From contig NZ_JAJTHI010000005.1 in the NCBI RefSeq assembly GCF_021298855.1, positions 108,375 to 172,374 on the forward strand: a stretch of 64,000 bases of DNA, written 5' to 3'. The DNA is from Gemmatimonas sp. Its GTDB lineage: Bacteria > Gemmatimonadota > Gemmatimonadetes > Gemmatimonadales > Gemmatimonadaceae. Below the pieces are notes generated by a model. That model saw nothing but the letters and a program-made list of their open reading frames with translations. It was not told where the DNA came from and ran no database searches. How positions within the stretch are numbered: the first letter of the stretch is position 1; every line of letters starts with the position of its first letter. Position numbers and translations under genes: made by a program. Positions 2,615 through 63,987 of the stretch are shown piece by piece.

Positions 2615-3241
2615 ATGACTGAGTTGCTGGCGTGGTTGACGTCGCTTCCGGAGGCCCTGTTGTACGGGGCCATCATCGTGGCGGCCTTTCTCGAGAATGT
2701 GTTTCCGCCGCTCCCTGCCGACACGGTGATCGCGCTCGGCGCGTTCGTGGCCGCGCGCGGCACCGGGACCGAATGGGGCGTGTGGCTGGCGACCATGGTC
2801 GGCAACGTGGGAGGCGCCATGCTGATGTACGGGTTGGGCCACCGCTACGGTCTCCCGTGGCTCATGCGGCGCTTTCCGGCCGTGGTATCCCCCTCCGCCG
2901 CCGACCGCTTTGCGGAACGCTTCAAGACGCAGGGACTGTTCGCGGTAATGGCGAGTCGATTCCTGCCGGGTGTGCGTGCGCTGGTGCCGCCCATGGCAGG
3001 CGCGCTCGGCATCGGCGCGGTGCGCGCGGCTGTGGCCATGACGCTGGCCTCCGGCCTGTGGTACGGGATCGTGTGTGTCCTGGCGTTTCGAGCCGGCGCG
3101 AACGCCGAGCAATTGCTGGCGCACATTGCGGAGCAGCAACGTCTGCTGGCGATCGGCGCCGGCGTACTCGTCATGATGGCGGTGGCGATTGTCGTGTGGC
3201 GCATGCGCTCGTCGCGTGCGGGTGGCGGGCAGGGCCAGTGA
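2615..3241 (+). CDS. DedA/SNARE-associated family membrane protein
   Basis: 208 aa, hydrophobic, with about five membrane stretches. The DedA hallmarks are visible: an acidic FLENVFPPLPAD loop near residues 25-35 and SRFLPGVRALVPPMAG near 115-130. DedA proteins are inner-membrane transporters or scramblases linked to undecaprenyl-phosphate or phospholipid recycling and membrane energisation. The substrate here cannot be read from sequence. Its TGA overlaps the GTG of the recombinase gene that follows. Confidence 0.85.
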   Translation: MTELLAWLTSLPEALLYGAIIVAAFLENVFPPLPADTVIALGAFVAARGTGTEWGVWLATMVGNVGGAMLMYGLGHRYGLPWLMRRFPAVVSPSAADRFAERFKTQGLFAVMASRFLPGVRALVPPMAGALGIGAVRAAVAMTLASGLWYGIVCVLAFRAGANAEQLLAHIAEQQRLLAIGAGVLVMMAVAIVVWRMRSSRAGGGQGQ

Positions 3242-4176
3242 CGGCCCCGGCGTTGCCCGACCGGGGAGACGACTGGCGCCATCTGCAGCAGGGGTTCGCC
3301 CTGCAACTGTTCGAAGATGCGTTGGCGCTCGAGGCGGGAGCCTCGCCCCGGACCATCGACGCGTATCGACGCGATGTGCTGCGCTGTGCGGTGTTCATGC
3401 GCACGCAGGGGATCACGACGGTCGGGGCCATTACCGCGGCGGCGCTTCGGGAGTTCATCTACCACCTCAAGGACCTCGGCCTTGCCGGGAGCTCGATCCG
3501 TCGCAACATCTCGGCGCTCCGCACATGGTATCGGATCCTGCTGGCGGAAGGGGTGGTCACGACCGATCCCACGGAGCGACTCGACTCCCCGCAACGATGG
3601 CGGACCTTGCCCGAGGTCCTGAGCGTCGACGAGGTGACGCGACTGCTCGCGGCGCCACAGCTCGACGAGCGCCTCGCGTTTCGTGATCGCGCCATGCTGG
3701 AACTGGCCTATGGCGCGGGACTCCGGGTGTCGGAGTGGATCGGCCTGGCGGTCAAGGACGTGCTGCTCGAGGAAGGGCTCGTGCGCGTGATCGGCAAGGG
3801 CAGCAAGGAGCGCCTCGTGCCGATCGGACGATCGGCGATCGGCGCCGTGGCGGTCTATGTGCGCGAACTCCGTCCGGTGCTGGAGCGGGGGCAGGGGAAG
3901 GGGCTGCTGTTTCTCAACGGCCGCGGCGCGCCGTTGACGCGCATGGGGGCCTGGAAGATCCTGCGCAAATACGTGGAACAGGCGGGACTCGAGAAAGCCG
4001 TGTCCCCGCACACGCTGCGCCACTCCTTTGCCACCCACCTGCTGGAGGGAGGCGCGGACCTCCGTGCCGTCCAGGAAATGCTGGGGCACGCCGACATCGC
4101 CACCACACAGATCTACACGCACGTGGACCGCGACTATCTTCGCAGTGTGCACCGACAGTTCCATCCACGCTCCTGA
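3238..4176 (+). CDS. xerD: Tyrosine recombinase XerD/XerC
   Basis: 312 aa, the standard Xer length. It has an N-terminal SAM-like core-binding domain (about 15-105) and a C-terminal catalytic domain with the full set of active-site residues: Arg163 (GAGLRVSEW), Lys190 (GKGSKERLVP), His258-x-x-Arg261 (PHTLRHSFATHLL), His284 and nucleophile Tyr293 (QIYTHVD). Xer recombinases resolve chromosome dimers at dif. The GTG start overlaps the dedA stop (GTGA). A dif-like site lies about 17 kb away in this window. Only one Xer gene is visible here; whether a second partner exists elsewhere decides XerC versus XerD naming. Confidence 0.92.
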   Translation: MTAPALPDRGDDWRHLQQGFALQLFEDALALEAGASPRTIDAYRRDVLRCAVFMRTQGITTVGAITAAALREFIYHLKDLGLAGSSIRRNISALRTWYRILLAEGVVTTDPTERLDSPQRWRTLPEVLSVDEVTRLLAAPQLDERLAFRDRAMLELAYGAGLRVSEWIGLAVKDVLLEEGLVRVIGKGSKERLVPIGRSAIGAVAVYVRELRPVLERGQGKGLLFLNGRGAPLTRMGAWKILRKYVEQAGLEKAVSPHTLRHSFATHLLEGGADLRAVQEMLGHADIATTQIYTHVDRDYLRSVHRQFHPRS

Positions 4177-4851: not shown

Positions 4852-5829
4852 TCACGTCGTGGCGTCGCGGTCCGGGCGCGGCGGAATGACGAGGGAGAGC
4901 AGGACGCTGCCCACGAGCACCCCGGCGACGATGCCCAGTGACACCCCGATGCCGATGGGGCGCCACTCGCTGAGCAGCATCTTCACTCCCACGAACGCCA
5001 GCACGACCGACAAGCCGTACTTGAGCAGGTGGAACCTGCCGATGATGTTGGCGAGCACGAAGTAGAGCGAGCGGAGCCCGAGGATGGCGAACACGTTCGA
5101 CGTGTACACGAGGAACGGGTTGCGCGTCACGCCGAAGATGGCAGGGATGGAGTCCACGGCGAACACCACGTCGGTCGTCTCCACGAGCACGAGCACCACA
5201 AAAAGGGGCGTGGCGACACGGCGCAGCGCTCCCCCAGGCTCGATCGCCTCTCGTACGAAGAACCTCTCGCCGTGAAACCTGGTGGTGAGGGGCACGAACC
5301 GGCGCACCAGGCGAATGACGGGGTTCTGCTCCGGCGCGATGTCGCTCCCACCACCGAAGGCCATCTTGAAGCCGGTGTAGACGAGAAAGGCGCCAAAGAC
5401 GTAGATGATCCAGTGGAATTGCGCCAGCAGGATGGCGCCCGCACCGATCATGGCCCCGCGCATGAGCAGCGCGCCAAGAATGCCCCAGAAGAGCACCCGA
5501 TGCTGGAGCTCCTGGGGAACGCGGAAGTATCCGAAGATCAGGATGAAGACGAACAGGTTGTCGACCGACAACGCCTGTTCCACCAGATAGCCGGCATAGA
5601 ACTCGAGCATGGCCTGGCGTCCCATGGCCTGCCCGATCCAGAGGCCAAACCCGACCGCCAGCGACACCCAGAGGGCGCTCCAGCCGAGCGCTTCCTTGAC
5701 CGAAACCGCGTGCGCCTTCCGGTTGAACACCCCGAGATCGAGGGCCAACAGGAACAGCACCATGACGTTGAAGCCGATCCACCAAGACGTGGGCATGCCG
5801 GAAAGCTGGAGACGCAAAAGGTGACGCAT
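4852..5829 (-). CDS. TerC/Alx family integral membrane metal exporter
   Basis: 325 aa with about eight or nine membrane helices. The family's conserved acidic membrane motifs are present: LALDLGVFN, QALSVDNLFVF and ETTDVVFAVDSIPAIFG. TerC/Alx relatives export manganese (Alx/MeeY) and were first noted for tellurite resistance, sometimes acting during metalation of secreted proteins. The substrate is inferred from family only. It is the only gene on the - strand left of about 21 kb. It is divergent from kdsB and convergent with trpG, so it is probably monocistronic. Confidence 0.85.
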   Translation of the reverse strand: MRHLLRLQLSGMPTSWWIGFNVMVLFLLALDLGVFNRKAHAVSVKEALGWSALWVSLAVGFGLWIGQAMGRQAMLEFYAGYLVEQALSVDNLFVFILIFGYFRVPQELQHRVLFWGILGALLMRGAMIGAGAILLAQFHWIIYVFGAFLVYTGFKMAFGGGSDIAPEQNPVIRLVRRFVPLTTRFHGERFFVREAIEPGGALRRVATPLFVVLVLVETTDVVFAVDSIPAIFGVTRNPFLVYTSNVFAILGLRSLYFVLANIIGRFHLLKYGLSVVLAFVGVKMLLSEWRPIGIGVSLGIVAGVLVGSVLLSLVIPPRPDRDATT

Positions 5830-19417: not shown

Positions 19418-20179
19418 ATGACCCGTATCAAGACTCCGGCCCGTGGCGCGCTCAGCATCGATGAGCGGGGCGTCGTGATCGTGCCGACCTACAACGAAAG
19501 TGAGAACGTCACGCGCATCGTCCCGCAGATCCTCGAACAGGATCCGCGGCTCGATGTACTGATCGTCGATGACAACTCCCCGGATGGTACCGGTCGACTT
19601 GCCGATGAACTGGCCGCAGCGGACCCTCGGGTCCATGTGCTGCACCGGCCGGGGAAGGAGGGGCTGGGTCGGGCGTATCTGGCCGGGTTCCGCTGGGCGC
19701 TGGCTCGAGACTACGGCTACATCTTCGAAATGGACGCCGATTTCTCGCATGACCCGGCGCACCTCCCCGAGTTCCTTGCCACCGTCCGCGATGCCGATCT
19801 CGTGCTTGGCTCCCGGTACCGGGACGGCAAGGTCACGGTGGTCAACTGGCCGATCACGCGCCTCATGTTGTCTTATGGCGCCAACATCTATGCGCGTGCC
19901 ATTACTGGGCTTCGGCTCGGTGACGCGACAGGTGGCTTCAAGTGCTTTCGCCGCGAGGTCCTGGAGGCCATCCCACTCGACGCCGTGCGGTCGAACGGGT
20001 ATGCCTTCCAGATCGAGATGAGCTTCCGTGCCTGGAAGCGGGGCTTCCGCATTGCCGAAATCCCCATCGTGTTCCACGACCGCACCGAAGGGGAATCCAA
20101 GATGTCCAAGCGGATCGTACGTGAAGCCATCTGGATGGTGTGGCGCCTCCGTTGGTGGGGCATGACCGGCAAGTACTGA
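19418..20179 (+). CDS. Polyprenol-monophosphomannose synthase-like GT2
   Basis: 253 aa, Dpm1-type: VVIVPTYNESENVTRIVP, VLIVDDNSPDGTGRLADEL, the metal-binding FEMDADFSHDP and the DATGGFKCFRREVLEAI block. There is no C-terminal membrane segment, as in the soluble Dpm1 class. It makes polyprenyl-phosphate-mannose or a similar carrier-linked sugar for periplasmic glycosylation, working with the cassette upstream. The ATG at 19418 was preferred over 19370 because the extra 16 residues look non-conserved. Its TGA overlaps the dapF ATG (TGATG). Confidence 0.88.
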   Translation: MTRIKTPARGALSIDERGVVIVPTYNESENVTRIVPQILEQDPRLDVLIVDDNSPDGTGRLADELAAADPRVHVLHRPGKEGLGRAYLAGFRWALARDYGYIFEMDADFSHDPAHLPEFLATVRDADLVLGSRYRDGKVTVVNWPITRLMLSYGANIYARAITGLRLGDATGGFKCFRREVLEAIPLDAVRSNGYAFQIEMSFRAWKRGFRIAEIPIVFHDRTEGESKMSKRIVREAIWMVWRLRWWGMTGKY

Positions 20180-21090
20180 TGCGTGATCCCGCGGTAGTGC
20201 CAGCGCCCCCTGTTCCACCGGTCGATTTCACGGCGCTGGCCGGCCTTCCGTTCACCAAGATGACCGGGTCGGGGAACGACTTCGTCTTCTTTGACGGTCG
20301 CCTTACCCCCTTGGATCGTGTCACATCACCTGAGGTGATACGTCGCATCTGCAACAGGAACAATGGGATAGGTGCTGACGGGCTTGTCGTGCTCGAACCG
20401 ACGGGCGATGGCGCCGATGTCACGATCCATTACTTCAACAGCGATGGGTCGCCGGCGGATCTATGCGGCAATGCGACGTTGTGCTCAACGACGCTGGCGG
20501 CGCAGCTGGAGATGGCCTCGCCCGTGGGCATGCGCCTGGCCACTGGCGCGGGAGTCATCTCGAGCCGCCTCACGGGACACGGCCCCGGTCAACTGCCGGA
20601 GATCGACCTGCAACCGGTCACCGACGTACGCCCAACGTTGGACATCAAGCGGGCTCCTGGTGAACAGGCCATCGGCTTGGCTGTGGCCGGCATTCCGCAT
20701 CTCGTGGTGCTCTGCGACGACGCCGAAGCGGTACCTCTTCGCGAGCGGGGGCCGGTTCTCCGCCATCATCCGAGTCTGGGTCCCGCCGGCGCCAATGTGA
20801 ACTGGGTCTCCCGGCAACCCGACGGCCGATGGCGCTATCGCACCTTCGAGCGCGGGGTGGAAGGCGAGACGCTGGCGTGCGGCACGGGCGCCGTGGCCAC
20901 GGCCGTTCTGCTGGGGGCCTGGGGGCTGGCCGTTGGCCCTGTGGTAACCATTGTGTCCAGTTCCGGCCGACCATTGCAGGTCCGGCTTCCAGCCTCGGAT
21001 GGCGCCAACGCCGAGGAACAGGGACGCGGCCAGCCGTCGCTACGCGGCGAGGGGCGTGTGGTATTCCGAGGCGTTATCGCCGCGCTCTAA
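20179..21090 (+). CDS. dapF: Diaminopimelate epimerase
   Basis: 303 aa. Both catalytic cysteines are present in context, NSDGSPADLCGNATLC (first half) and GVEGETLACGTGAVA (second half), and the N-terminal KMTGSGNDFVFFDG is typical. It converts LL- to meso-diaminopimelate for lysine and peptidoglycan. About 15 residues of proline-rich leader precede the conserved start. It is the last + strand gene before the dif region, so its transcript runs into the gap. Confidence 0.95.
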   Translation: MRDPAVVPAPPVPPVDFTALAGLPFTKMTGSGNDFVFFDGRLTPLDRVTSPEVIRRICNRNNGIGADGLVVLEPTGDGADVTIHYFNSDGSPADLCGNATLCSTTLAAQLEMASPVGMRLATGAGVISSRLTGHGPGQLPEIDLQPVTDVRPTLDIKRAPGEQAIGLAVAGIPHLVVLCDDAEAVPLRERGPVLRHHPSLGPAGANVNWVSRQPDGRWRYRTFERGVEGETLACGTGAVATAVLLGAWGLAVGPVVTIVSSSGRPLQVRLPASDGANAEEQGRGQPSLRGEGRVVFRGVIAAL

Positions 21091-21117
21091 GCGATTGTTG
21101 ATCGTACGGTTCCACGA

Positions 21118-21268
21118 TGTGGACAGGTGGACAGTTCGTGTGTTCGTGACACGAGCCGCATGGATGAACGCCGGCACGGTCCGTCATCTATTTGCGCGGC
21201 AATACGTTACGCGATCTTCCCACAAAGCGGGGGATTTCCACGTGGGGAATTTCCCACAGTTATCCACC
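21118..21268. repeat. Cluster of DnaA-box-like nonamers
   Basis: Nonamers close to TTATCCACA: TGTGGACAG (21118-21126, reverse complement CTGTCCACA), CTTCCCACA (21216-21224), TTTCCCACA (21250-21258) and TTATCCACC (21260-21268, eight of nine). Spacing is irregular. They may be chance, given the repeated CCCACA motif. Confidence 0.3.
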
Positions 21269-21274
21269 GGCTCT

Positions 21275-21302
21275 AGTTTACATAACATGTATTATACGCA
21301 TA
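21275..21302 (-). other. Probable chromosomal dif site
   Basis: On the - strand the 28 bp read as an 11-base XerC-like arm (TATGCGTATAA), a 6-base spacer (TACATG) and an 11-base XerD-like arm (TTATGTAAACT). From memory of the published sites, the XerD arm matches E. coli dif at nine of 11 positions and B. subtilis dif at all 11. The XerC arm matches E. coli dif at eight of 11. The site sits in the gap where both gene arms converge, and a Xer recombinase gene is in the same window. The consensus comparison is recalled, not searched. Confidence 0.75.
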
Positions 21303-21309
21303 AAACACC

Positions 21310-21347
21310 ACAAAAGAACAAGGCGGGCGACCGTCCCGTCGCCCGCC
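21310..21347 (-). terminator. Rho-independent terminator of the TPR gene
   Basis: A perfect 10-bp stem GGCGGGCGAC/GTCGCCCGCC (21322-21331 and 21338-21347) with a 6-base loop. On the - strand it is followed by TTGTTCTTTTG, a U-rich tract, about 40 bases after the stop of the TPR membrane protein gene. It may also block dapF read-through from the other side. Confidence 0.75.
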
Positions 21348-21386
21348 TGACTCCCTTGCCGCGTGCCCGGGAAACGTGGAGTGGGC

Positions 21387-22061
21387 TCAGCTCTTCGCCG
21401 CCAACTCGCCGAGGCGGACCGTCGCCTCCTGCTGCACCGGCTCCCCCTCCAGCTTCGCCAACTCCTCCCAGATCTTCTTGGCGTCGGCGTTCTTTCCGGC
21501 GGCCATGAGACTGCGGGCCTGGCTGGCCTGGTGGTTGTACTTCTCCGACTTGTATGGGGCCAGCGACGCGGCCTTTCCGTAATGCTCGGCGGCCTTGACC
21601 ATATCCTTCTTCTGCTCGTAGCCCGCCGCGATCAGGGCCTCGATGTTCGACTTGAACTCGGGCGACGCGCCGCCAAGCGCCTTCTCCAGCGACTTGATCC
21701 CTTCATCCACCTTGTTCTGCCCGAACAGCGCCTGCCCAAGCAGGATCGCCGCCTGCTGACCAGAGGCCGTATTGGCGAACCGCGTGGCCACCTTCTCGAG
21801 TTCGCGCTGCGCCTCGGGCAACTTGCCCTGAACGAACGGGGCCTGCGCCTCGTACAGCGCGACCGACGCCTTCTCGCGTGTCGCCGCCATATTGCTGCGG
21901 TAAATCATGACCGCGGCGGCGGCAACGGCTGCCCCGCCCACCACCAGCAGGATCGGCTTGCTGTTGAGCTGCAGCCAGGTGGTCGCCGACTCGATCGGAT
22001 CGTCGCTCAACGGAGCCGATGCACCGGGCGAGGTGCGTGGATTGCGGGTCGCCTGCGCCAT
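21387..22061 (-). CDS. TPR-containing single-pass membrane protein (YfgM-like)
   Basis: 224 aa. A cytoplasmic N-terminus of about 35 residues, one membrane helix (about 36-53, ILLVVGGAAVAAAAVMIY), then helical TPR-like repeats to the end (AQRELEKVATRFANTASGQQAA, AAEHYGKAASLAPYKSEKY). The topology resembles YfgM, a SecYEG-associated periplasmic chaperone partner, but no functional residue confirms this. It follows tRNA-Arg and is the gene nearest dif on the right arm. Confidence 0.65.
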   Translation of the reverse strand: MAQATRNPRTSPGASAPLSDDPIESATTWLQLNSKPILLVVGGAAVAAAAVMIYRSNMAATREKASVALYEAQAPFVQGKLPEAQRELEKVATRFANTASGQQAAILLGQALFGQNKVDEGIKSLEKALGGASPEFKSNIEALIAAGYEQKKDMVKAAEHYGKAASLAPYKSEKYNHQASQARSLMAAGKNADAKKIWEELAKLEGEPVQQEATVRLGELAAKS

Positions 22062-46776: not shown

Positions 46777-49308
46777 TTAGAAGAGCTGACCGAGACGGAA
46801 GTGGAACTGCCACCGCGGATCCGGCCGGAGCCGCTGCGTGACGACGTCCACCGCCTGCCGGTCAAAGCCGTACGCCAAATCCAGCCCGAGTGGACCGAGT
46901 GGCGTAACAGTAGATACCCCAAATCCAGCTGAACGGTAGAGGCGGGTCGGGTTGATCTGTCGGGCGGAGGCCCAGTTGTTCCCGGCGTCCGCGAAGACGT
47001 TGAAGTAGAACATCTGGTTGAACCGGAGCCCGATTTCTCCGGTCAGGGTCATGAACGCGTTACCGAACGAGGCCGGGTCCGACCGGAACTGGTCGGTGCC
47101 CGGATTGAAGCCCTGCGGCGTGATGGAGAATTCGGGGTACCCGCGGAGCGATTGCCCGAACATCACGCCCCCCACGGCGAATTGCTGCTGGAAGAAGAAC
47201 GGGCCCGAGTTGCCGAAGAGCGCGCCGCTGCGCGCGGTGAGCCCCATCGTCAGCTTGATCGGCTGCGACCCCGGGTTGCTGCCGCCGAACTGCCCCAGCA
47301 GGGCATACCCCCGCATTTCCGTGGTGAGCCGCTGGAAGTTGACGGTCCCGCCAAAGGGTCCGCCGCTCAGGTCCAGTTGCAACGAGCGCAGCGACCCCTG
47401 GGTGGCGAAGGGCATGTCCACGCGGGTGTCGTACTGATACTCGAGTCCCACGTTGGAGCGCAGGCAGTTCCGTGAGCAACTGCCCACCAGGGTGCCCGAC
47501 GTGAACGTCGCATTCTCGACGTTGTACGACACCGCGACCGTGGAGAAGTACGACCACGGCGTGGGGAGGCCGAGCCGGAACTGGGAGCCGGTCCGGATGT
47601 TCTGGCCGAGATTGCCGACAATGAAGCGCGACTGGGTCCGGTAGGCGCTGAGGGCGCCCGACAGACGCGTGCCCTTGAGGGCCGGGTCGGTGTAAGTGGC
47701 GGTGAAGTCGTTGAAGAATCGTCCGTACTGCCAGTTGAGGCGCCCCGACTTGCACAGGCCGAAGAGATTGGGCTGCTCAAGGCCGATGAAGCCACCGAAC
47801 CCCACGCCCCCCTGGCCCATGGAGGCGCCGAAGTTCACCGACCCGGTGCGCTTCTCCTTCACGCGGAACACGATGTCCACGTCCCCCTGCTCGTTGATCG
47901 GACGATAGTCCGGAAACGGCATGGGCTGCTCGAAGAAGTTCATGTTGCCGATGCTCTGGTAGCTCCGAATCAGCGCCTGCTGATTGAACGGCCCGCCGGG
48001 CACCAGGAAGATCTGTCGGCGGATGCAGTCATCGGCGGTGAAGTCGTTGCCGACGATCTCGATGCGATTGACGATGGCCGGATTCTTTTCGTCGATTTCC
48101 CAGCGCAGGTTGGCGGTGGGCACCGAATCGTTGCCTTCGTAGCGACGCTCCACGACGGGGCGGACACTGGCGTACAGGTAGCCGTTGTCGCGGTACGCGC
48201 TGTTCACCTTCTCGAGCGCCGCGTCCCACTTGGCCTGATCGAACACCCCGCGCGGGGCTTCCGGCTGACGGAAGATGAGTCCCATGGCGCGCTGCGTGAG
48301 CGTCTTGGTCTCGTTGCCGTCGAAGGGGTAGAACTTGCGCAAATCCTCGGTGTTGAAGCGCCGGTTGCCGGCAATCTCGAAACTGCCGACCCGGAACTGC
48401 GGCCCCTCGTCGACGGTGATCTGGACGAGCCCCTTCCCCCTGTCGCGGTCCACCACCAGCGTGTCCTTGGTGATGCGCGCGTCCACATGCCCGAGCCGGG
48501 CATAGAGCGCAGGAATGCGCTCGCCCAGGTCGCCGACGTACTTGTCGTCGTCGTACTCGCCCTTCTTGAAGAAGAAGAATCCTTCGGGCTTGGTCTTCAT
48601 CGCCCCCACGATCGTCTTCTCGCGCACCGAGCGGTTGCCGAGGATGTCGATGGCCGAGATGGCCAGCCGACGCCCTTCGTCGATGGTGTAGGCAATGGCA
48701 ATGCGCCCATCGCTCATGGCGGTGGAATCGATCGTGACCTGCGCGAGATAGTAGCCGGCATTCTCGTACACCGAGTCGATCTTGGCCTTCGCGCGCGCCA
48801 CCTGCAGCGGGTCGATGGGCCGGCCGATGAGCAGGTCGACCTTGTCCCTGATGGATCGCTCCGAGATGGCCTTGGGCCCGGTCACCGTAATGTCCCCGAG
48901 AATGAGCCGCTCCCGCACCTGCACCACCGTCAGCACCTGTCCCGGCACCGACTCCAGATCGCAGAGGATCTGCACGTCGTCGAACTCGCCCATGGCGTAG
49001 AGGGCCTTGAGCGTGCGCTGCAGCGTGGGGAAGTTGAGCGTCGCCCCCTTCGCGATCCCCGCCTCCGTGCGAATACGCGCCTCGCTCACGCGCGCATGGC
49101 CCCGCACCGCGAGCGAATCGGTGGTCGTGCAGCGCCCGGCCACCTCCTGCGCCGACAGCGACGCGGGCGCCGCCGCCGTGAGCATGGCGGCAGCCAGCAC
49201 GCCGACGCGCAGGGGCATCGCACCGGCGGCACGCACGAACGCCCCCAGGCGCGCAGCCAGTGGGCGCGCTGCCGTAGGGACGGGAAACAGGGAAACGCGT
49301 TTCAGCAT
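46777..49308 (-). CDS. bamA: Outer-membrane assembly factor BamA
   Basis: 843 aa. A signal peptide is followed by about five POTRA domains (about 55-430, e.g. VRGHARVSEARIRTEAG, ISAIDILGNRSVREKTI, FRVGSFEIAGNRRFNTEDL) and a 16-strand Bac_surface_Ag barrel (about 460-843) ending in the C-terminal Phe of RLGQLF, typical of OMPs. It inserts beta-barrels. The ATG at 49308 was chosen at the signal peptide; the ORF track adds about 108 non-coding residues. Confidence 0.95.
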   Translation of the reverse strand: MLKRVSLFPVPTAARPLAARLGAFVRAAGAMPLRVGVLAAAMLTAAAPASLSAQEVAGRCTTTDSLAVRGHARVSEARIRTEAGIAKGATLNFPTLQRTLKALYAMGEFDDVQILCDLESVPGQVLTVVQVRERLILGDITVTGPKAISERSIRDKVDLLIGRPIDPLQVARAKAKIDSVYENAGYYLAQVTIDSTAMSDGRIAIAYTIDEGRRLAISAIDILGNRSVREKTIVGAMKTKPEGFFFFKKGEYDDDKYVGDLGERIPALYARLGHVDARITKDTLVVDRDRGKGLVQITVDEGPQFRVGSFEIAGNRRFNTEDLRKFYPFDGNETKTLTQRAMGLIFRQPEAPRGVFDQAKWDAALEKVNSAYRDNGYLYASVRPVVERRYEGNDSVPTANLRWEIDEKNPAIVNRIEIVGNDFTADDCIRRQIFLVPGGPFNQQALIRSYQSIGNMNFFEQPMPFPDYRPINEQGDVDIVFRVKEKRTGSVNFGASMGQGGVGFGGFIGLEQPNLFGLCKSGRLNWQYGRFFNDFTATYTDPALKGTRLSGALSAYRTQSRFIVGNLGQNIRTGSQFRLGLPTPWSYFSTVAVSYNVENATFTSGTLVGSCSRNCLRSNVGLEYQYDTRVDMPFATQGSLRSLQLDLSGGPFGGTVNFQRLTTEMRGYALLGQFGGSNPGSQPIKLTMGLTARSGALFGNSGPFFFQQQFAVGGVMFGQSLRGYPEFSITPQGFNPGTDQFRSDPASFGNAFMTLTGEIGLRFNQMFYFNVFADAGNNWASARQINPTRLYRSAGFGVSTVTPLGPLGLDLAYGFDRQAVDVVTQRLRPDPRWQFHFRLGQLF

Positions 49309-63863: not shown

Positions 63864-63871
63864 GAAAGGGT

Positions 63872-63987
<116 letters not shown>

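Follow-up and report, generated by a model that had tools for sequence, protein, structure and literature searches.

A tandem-box element beside the XerD arm of chromosomal dif in Gemmatimonadota: a candidate accessory site at the replication terminus

Judged from aligned sequences, the chromosomal dif site of Gemmatimonadota, chiefly of the Gemmatimonas order, is composite: beyond the XerD arm, and separated from it by 6–7 bp, lie two direct GTGGNNAA boxes placed 10 bp apart. We propose that an accessory site is built into this chromosomal dif, a known kind of site that thereby carries a newly seen addition. With the identity of the binder left open, we favour, with some confidence, the full statement that the composite dif is occupied at its boxes by a protein that would act at XerD. 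The tandem-box element is the new part and is apparently undescribed; a literature search whose coverage of subscription papers was thin returned nothing on DnaA-like boxes, or on an accessory element of this sort, at a chromosomal dif.

The window analysed here is a stretch of 64,000 nucleotides (G000:C22:108375-172374) from a Gemmatimonas draft genome of 4.085 Mb in 91 contigs. At 21275-21302 on the minus strand it carries a 28-mer that, read on that strand, consists of a XerC arm, TATGCGTATAA (21302-21292), a 6-bp central region, TACATG (21291-21286), and a XerD arm, TTATGTAAACT (21285-21275), with the letters and at the position given in a preliminary description of this DNA. It agrees with E. 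coli dif in 20/28 letters; the runner-up 28-mer in the window reaches 16/28. The site is conserved across the genus Gemmatimonas, nearly always as one copy per genome. The assignment to dif made in the preliminary description held when the whole draft was searched for a better match: none was found, the core ATAATNNNNNTTATGTAAA occurring once without mismatch in the 4.09-Mb genome, at 21275-21302, and all of its remaining matches genome-wide having three mismatches and being as frequent as those of a reversed control. We identify 21275-21302, from its sequence, as the chromosomal dif of a Gemmatimonas-type genome, the point where both replichores converge. It combines the arm/6-bp centre/arm layout, a single conserved copy, a position at the skew shift point, an accompanying Xer pair with FtsK-gamma, and convergence of KOPS, and it is almost certainly functional. 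With the dif sites of E. coli and B. subtilis it shares the length of 28 bp, the 6-bp centre and its occurrence once, at the skew shift point. Kono et al. 2011 (PMC3025954) had predicted a dif for the one genome of the phylum (Gemmatimonadetes); the dif itself is therefore ordinary and not new.

That the site marks the replication terminus, as had also been proposed, is borne out by nucleotide skew and by gene polarity. Windowed GC skew is mostly positive to the left of ~21 kb and mostly negative to its right, and cumulative skew climbs to a maximum at 19–21 kb and then falls, so that the sign change anticipated near 21.3 kb is present. Genes identified through Pfam all lie on the plus strand to the left of dif, with the exception of TerC (4852-5829, minus) that had already been singled out, and all on the minus strand to the right. 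In G020, a complete relative, dif is located at 1.9303 Mb and dnaA at 0.4 kb, the arm from dnaA to dif making up 0.42 of the chromosome; integrated GC skew, sampled over sixty 20-kb stretches of this 4,636,964-bp chromosome, peaks at ~1.942 Mb, ~12 kb off dif, and the orientation of KOPS flips at dif. A reading of the locus as oriC instead of terminus, which DnaA-like boxes beside an AT-rich 28-mer might suggest, was rejected on the sign of the skew and the polarity of both genes and KOPS, and is also countered by the location of dnaA 1.93 Mb away in G020.

Ribosomal RNA genes are found near the terminus in this genus: the sole 16S gene of G020 lies ~47 kb from dif (rRNA genes at G020:C1:1882858-1887928), and G028 and G029 have two 16S copies each, within ~50 and ~300–320 kb of dif. 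The 5S gene of the window (63871-63987, minus), 42.6 kb from dif and at the point where the contig ends, fits this pattern. A tRNA-Met called by ARAGORN at 48681-48767 (plus), inside a bamA-like gene, has no Rfam support and is probably false.

The recombination machinery that serves dif is encoded as well. The Xer recombinase gene noticed earlier in the window proved to be xerD (TIGR02225; 350 bits, cut-off 330); its Xer domain occupies 3298-4176 (plus) within an ORF at 2632-4176, 17 kb from dif. The distance between xerD and dif is 17–21 kb in all four genomes examined (G000, G020, G028 and G029). A second Xer gene, on contig C47 next to trmFO-like and topA-like ORFs, scores best as XerC (333.4, just under the cut-off of 335.15), and FtsK_gamma is encoded in 4/4 genomes tested. 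KOPS steer FtsK to dif, where FtsK contacts XerD and starts the XerC/XerD strand exchange that turns chromosome dimers into monomers. An octamer polarity screen of the G020 sample, in which no motif was named beforehand, returned GGGCAGGG as the most polarised octamer, with 71 occurrences toward dif versus 8 away, in both arms; it is an E. coli-type KOPS. The corresponding counts for GGGNAGGG were 113 versus 28. Within the window, all five copies of GGGCAGGG on the plus strand lie to the left of dif and all five on the minus strand to the right, so that 10/10 flip at dif. With dif, XerC/XerD, FtsK-gamma and polarised KOPS all found, the full XerCD/FtsK/KOPS/dif system is therefore present, and it has in common with known systems of this type both recombinases, FtsK-gamma and the polarity of GGGNAGGG-type KOPS.

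Aligning the dif loci revealed, on the XerD side, a feature absent from the preliminary description: a tandem pair, GGTGGATAA-C-TGTGGGAAA, whose fixed place beside the XerD arm sets the Gemmatimonas dif apart from the chromosomal dif sites described in the papers found. On the dif strand, the layout in the genus is XerD arm, 7 bp, GTGGATAA-N-TGTGGGAAA. The gap between the XerD arm and GTGGATAA (21268-21274, 7 bp) is constant in length across the genus and little conserved in sequence, except for the base adjoining the box. Box 1 (21260-21268, minus) reads GGTGGATAA on the minus strand (TTATCCACC on the plus strand) and is DnaA-box-like, with one mismatch to TTATCCACA; box 2 (21250-21258, minus) reads TGTGGGAAA on the minus strand and lies 10 bp, or one helical turn, from box 1, and its position is taken by TGTGGAGAA/TGTGGACAA in many other genera. 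In 27/27 congeners, GTGGATAA is invariant and its distance to the XerD arm is 7 bp without exception. Across these 27 genus loci, information content amounts to ~2 bits per box position and ends abruptly, with no conservation beyond; the XerC flank has ~0.3 bits, and both this flank and most of the gap are near random. By inspection, weaker box-like words were seen on the minus strand within 21216-21242, namely TTTCCAC at 21235-21241 and CTTCCCACA at 21216-21224; several congeners have words like these at variable spacing.

In each of the four Gemmatimonas genomes tested, the pair occurred at dif and nowhere else. In near-exact form it was found in 21/23 genus genomes searched, always at dif and once each except in G010, where two copies lie on two short contigs, and it also occurs at one family-2 dif. 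A looser pair, GTGGRNAANYGTGGRNAA, matched once, at dif, in each of G000, G020, G028, G029, G073 and G239; there was none in G270, and G112 has one, away from dif. We consider it very probable that the boxes are a protein site under selection that works together with dif. A place on the XerD side, which FtsK contacts, and G-rich words could also fit a KOPS-like motif at which FtsK loads or stops. KOPS in these genomes is GGGCAGGG, however, and the boxes point away from dif; in the G020 sample their words are barely polarised, with 3 copies of GTGGATAA toward dif versus 2 away and 412 versus 341 of GTGGNNAA. We rejected the boxes as KOPS because they lack clear polarity toward dif in that sample, while GGGCAGGG is strongly polarised, and we hold a KOPS-like role to be very unlikely.

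The element extends well outside the genus. A pattern of dif followed by GTGGANAA at 5–20 bp matched 137/298 genomes of the phylum, and its reversed control matched 0. A follow-up search used dif alone with open flanks, so that the boxes were not selected for. Among the matches listed, GTGG stood at offset 8/9 and/or 18/19 after TTATGTNAA in 70/73 sites of the family outside the genus and at the same offsets in 53/53 dif sites from two other families of the order; the order-level total outside the genus, again among the matches listed, is 123/126 dif sites, versus 4–5% of shuffled flanks. The genomes are related, and these counts are therefore not independent events. The two GTGG registers are 10 bp apart, equal to one helical turn, and the gap from the XerD arm to the boxes is 6–7 bp throughout the order. 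Among the matches listed, in which other orders are thinly represented, 0/8 dif sites from those orders had GTGG at these offsets. Families 4 and 6 of the class carry the element at dif. It was lacking at 7/7 dif sites that were inspected from families 5, 8 and 10, and is thus not essential to Xer recombination. An inverted third box was seen ~10–20 bp past the tandem pair in family 6 and in Longimicrobium-type sites (L310, L249, L293).

A scan of 85,462 species, each represented by one genome, yielded 93 matches with a box at the exact offset. Both boxes were present in 53 of these, which belong to Gemmatimonadota by title, are unlabelled or, in one case, are labelled Kuenenia, apparently by mistake, the contig having the same length as G009:C30 from a member of the genus; single-box matches in other phyla were few and looked like chance. 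Viral contigs yielded no Xer-exploiting virus with the composite dif-box site. Relatedness of the genomes might be taken to mean that there is an ordinary dif only, with a flank kept by shared ancestry and not by function. Against this, the 18-bp pair has sharp limits of conservation at either edge, the XerC side and the greater part of the gap being near random, and the element is kept across families in which dapF is only ~45% identical. An explanation by ancestry, which we rate as exceedingly unlikely, is already contradicted by the order-wide GTGG counts and these sharp edges.

Over 20140-22061 the gene order is dapF, the boxes with dif, and a gene for a TPR-repeat protein. dapF (diaminopimelate epimerase; 20140-21090, plus) has its 3' end facing the boxes and is the XerD-side neighbour throughout the sampled order. 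The TPR gene (21387-22061, minus) lies on the XerC side, with its 3' end toward dif, and is a kept neighbour in the genus, also found in many members outside it. Both genes end toward dif, so the boxes are not their promoter, and a role as promoter or operator of the neighbours was rejected. We likewise rejected the boxes as part of the dapF 3' region: in families 4 and 6 dif still carries them although dapF does not adjoin it, and an element that stays with dif when dapF is elsewhere is not part of dapF.

As to the protein that may bind the boxes, DnaA is the single most likely candidate, with a likelihood that we place a little below even. In reverse complement, the box words are TTATCCAC(C) and TTTCCCACA in Gemmatimonas and TTNTCCACA more widely. 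Compared with the DnaA-box consensus TTATNCACA, box 1 has one mismatch and box 2 two, and the fit is exact in some other genera: exact TTATCCACA is found at dif in some of them, and exact TGTGGATAA for example in G073 and G043. Box 2 of Gemmatimonas, TTTCCCACA, is off the classical DnaA box at two positions; elsewhere position 3 is often G or C. The DnaA of the genus keeps the recognition helix GGRDHSTV, and TTATCCACA, a rare word with 4–10 occurrences per genome, is found upstream of dnaA in four genomes. No DnaA-box cluster turned up near dnaA in the sampled stretches, and origin boxes of the clade therefore cannot serve as a yardstick. Just upstream of dnaA in G020, G028, G029 and G000, TTATCCACA is conserved in a TTGACTTATCCACA context (L065-L070), and CAACGAGTTG-like words are likewise conserved there.

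Another DnaA-related protein, which carries two ATPase domains of the DnaA type, is encoded at G020:C1:1693232-1695010 (L320:2233-4011) and G000:C64:142120-143700, where DUF4388 proteins and a small GTPase-like ORF belong to the same cluster; double matches to PF00308 occur in all four Gemmatimonas genomes tested. This paralogue was rejected as the binder, Pfam finding no DnaA DNA-binding domain (domain IV) in it.

The likeness to DnaA boxes may instead be incidental, the binder being a clade-specific protein other than DnaA, either a dedicated Xer accessory or a terminus organiser, that would work like ArgR/PepA at cer or MatP at matS. DnaA sites usually occur at several loci, whereas within the genus the pair occurs only at dif; box 2 strays from the DnaA consensus, and the geometry to XerD is fixed. 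Yet the DnaA box has the GTGGATAA core at its heart, exact TGTGGATAA occurs in some genomes, and the variation among the boxes falls within the known range of DnaA boxes in other phyla; we see a clade-specific binder as a serious possibility, if an improbable one on balance. DnaA-like boxes at the latest-replicating point could also form a titration or nucleotide-switch site akin to datA/DARS, timed by replication of the terminus, with dif a mere neighbour. Such a site does not need rigid spacing, yet the gap measures 7 bp in 27/27 congeners and 6–7 bp through the order, and there are two boxes only; we think it quite unlikely. Given binding, the binder probably regulates Xer/FtsK rather than DnaA supply. 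The specific proposal that Gemmatimonadota DnaA binds a dedicated two-box site at the XerD arm and directly controls XerCD/FtsK recombination is tentative, and rather unlikely to hold in full.

The fixed geometry to XerD points to a protein acting with the Xer complex on the FtsK-contact side. The mechanism that we favour builds on the established pathway, in which FtsK is guided to dif by GGGCAGGG-type KOPS, contacts XerD and triggers XerC/XerD exchange. A protein docked on the two boxes, on one helical face and in cis beside XerD, would touch or screen XerD at the side where FtsK enters, and may thereby decide at what time or in which direction dimer resolution is licensed. If that protein is DnaA, the likeliest candidate, dimer resolution would be linked to the replication state.

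Plasmid cer and psi, with ArgR–PepA, also pair a Xer core with adjacent accessory protein sites in cis, and the accessory sequences of cer, ~180 bp in length, govern plasmid dimer resolution (PMC5357621). Unlike those of cer, the Gemmatimonas element is a candidate accessory site of ~20 bp that lies on the XerD side of a chromosomal site, with KOPS and FtsK present. With datA and DARS of E. coli it has in common a cluster of DnaA-box-like sites outside oriC (PMC4585315). It differs from them in having two direct boxes 10 bp apart at a fixed distance from XerD. datA and DARS are not known to be linked to a dif site, and they differ in their number of boxes and in their partners.

dif is usually seen as a free-standing 28-bp site with FtsK as its main regulator. 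A strictly placed accessory element, order-wide in one phylum and missing from the other species genomes of the scan, would mean an extra layer of control on dimer resolution in that group. The composite dif-box signature is also a better guide to dif and the terminus when Gemmatimonadota genomes are in draft form. With DnaA as the binder, there would be a direct molecular link between the control of replication initiation and resolution at the terminus, and coupling of the two, which is hard to approach, would become testable with 20 bp of DNA and purified proteins. Should DnaA gate dif, the protein that starts replication would also gate the last step of chromosome separation.
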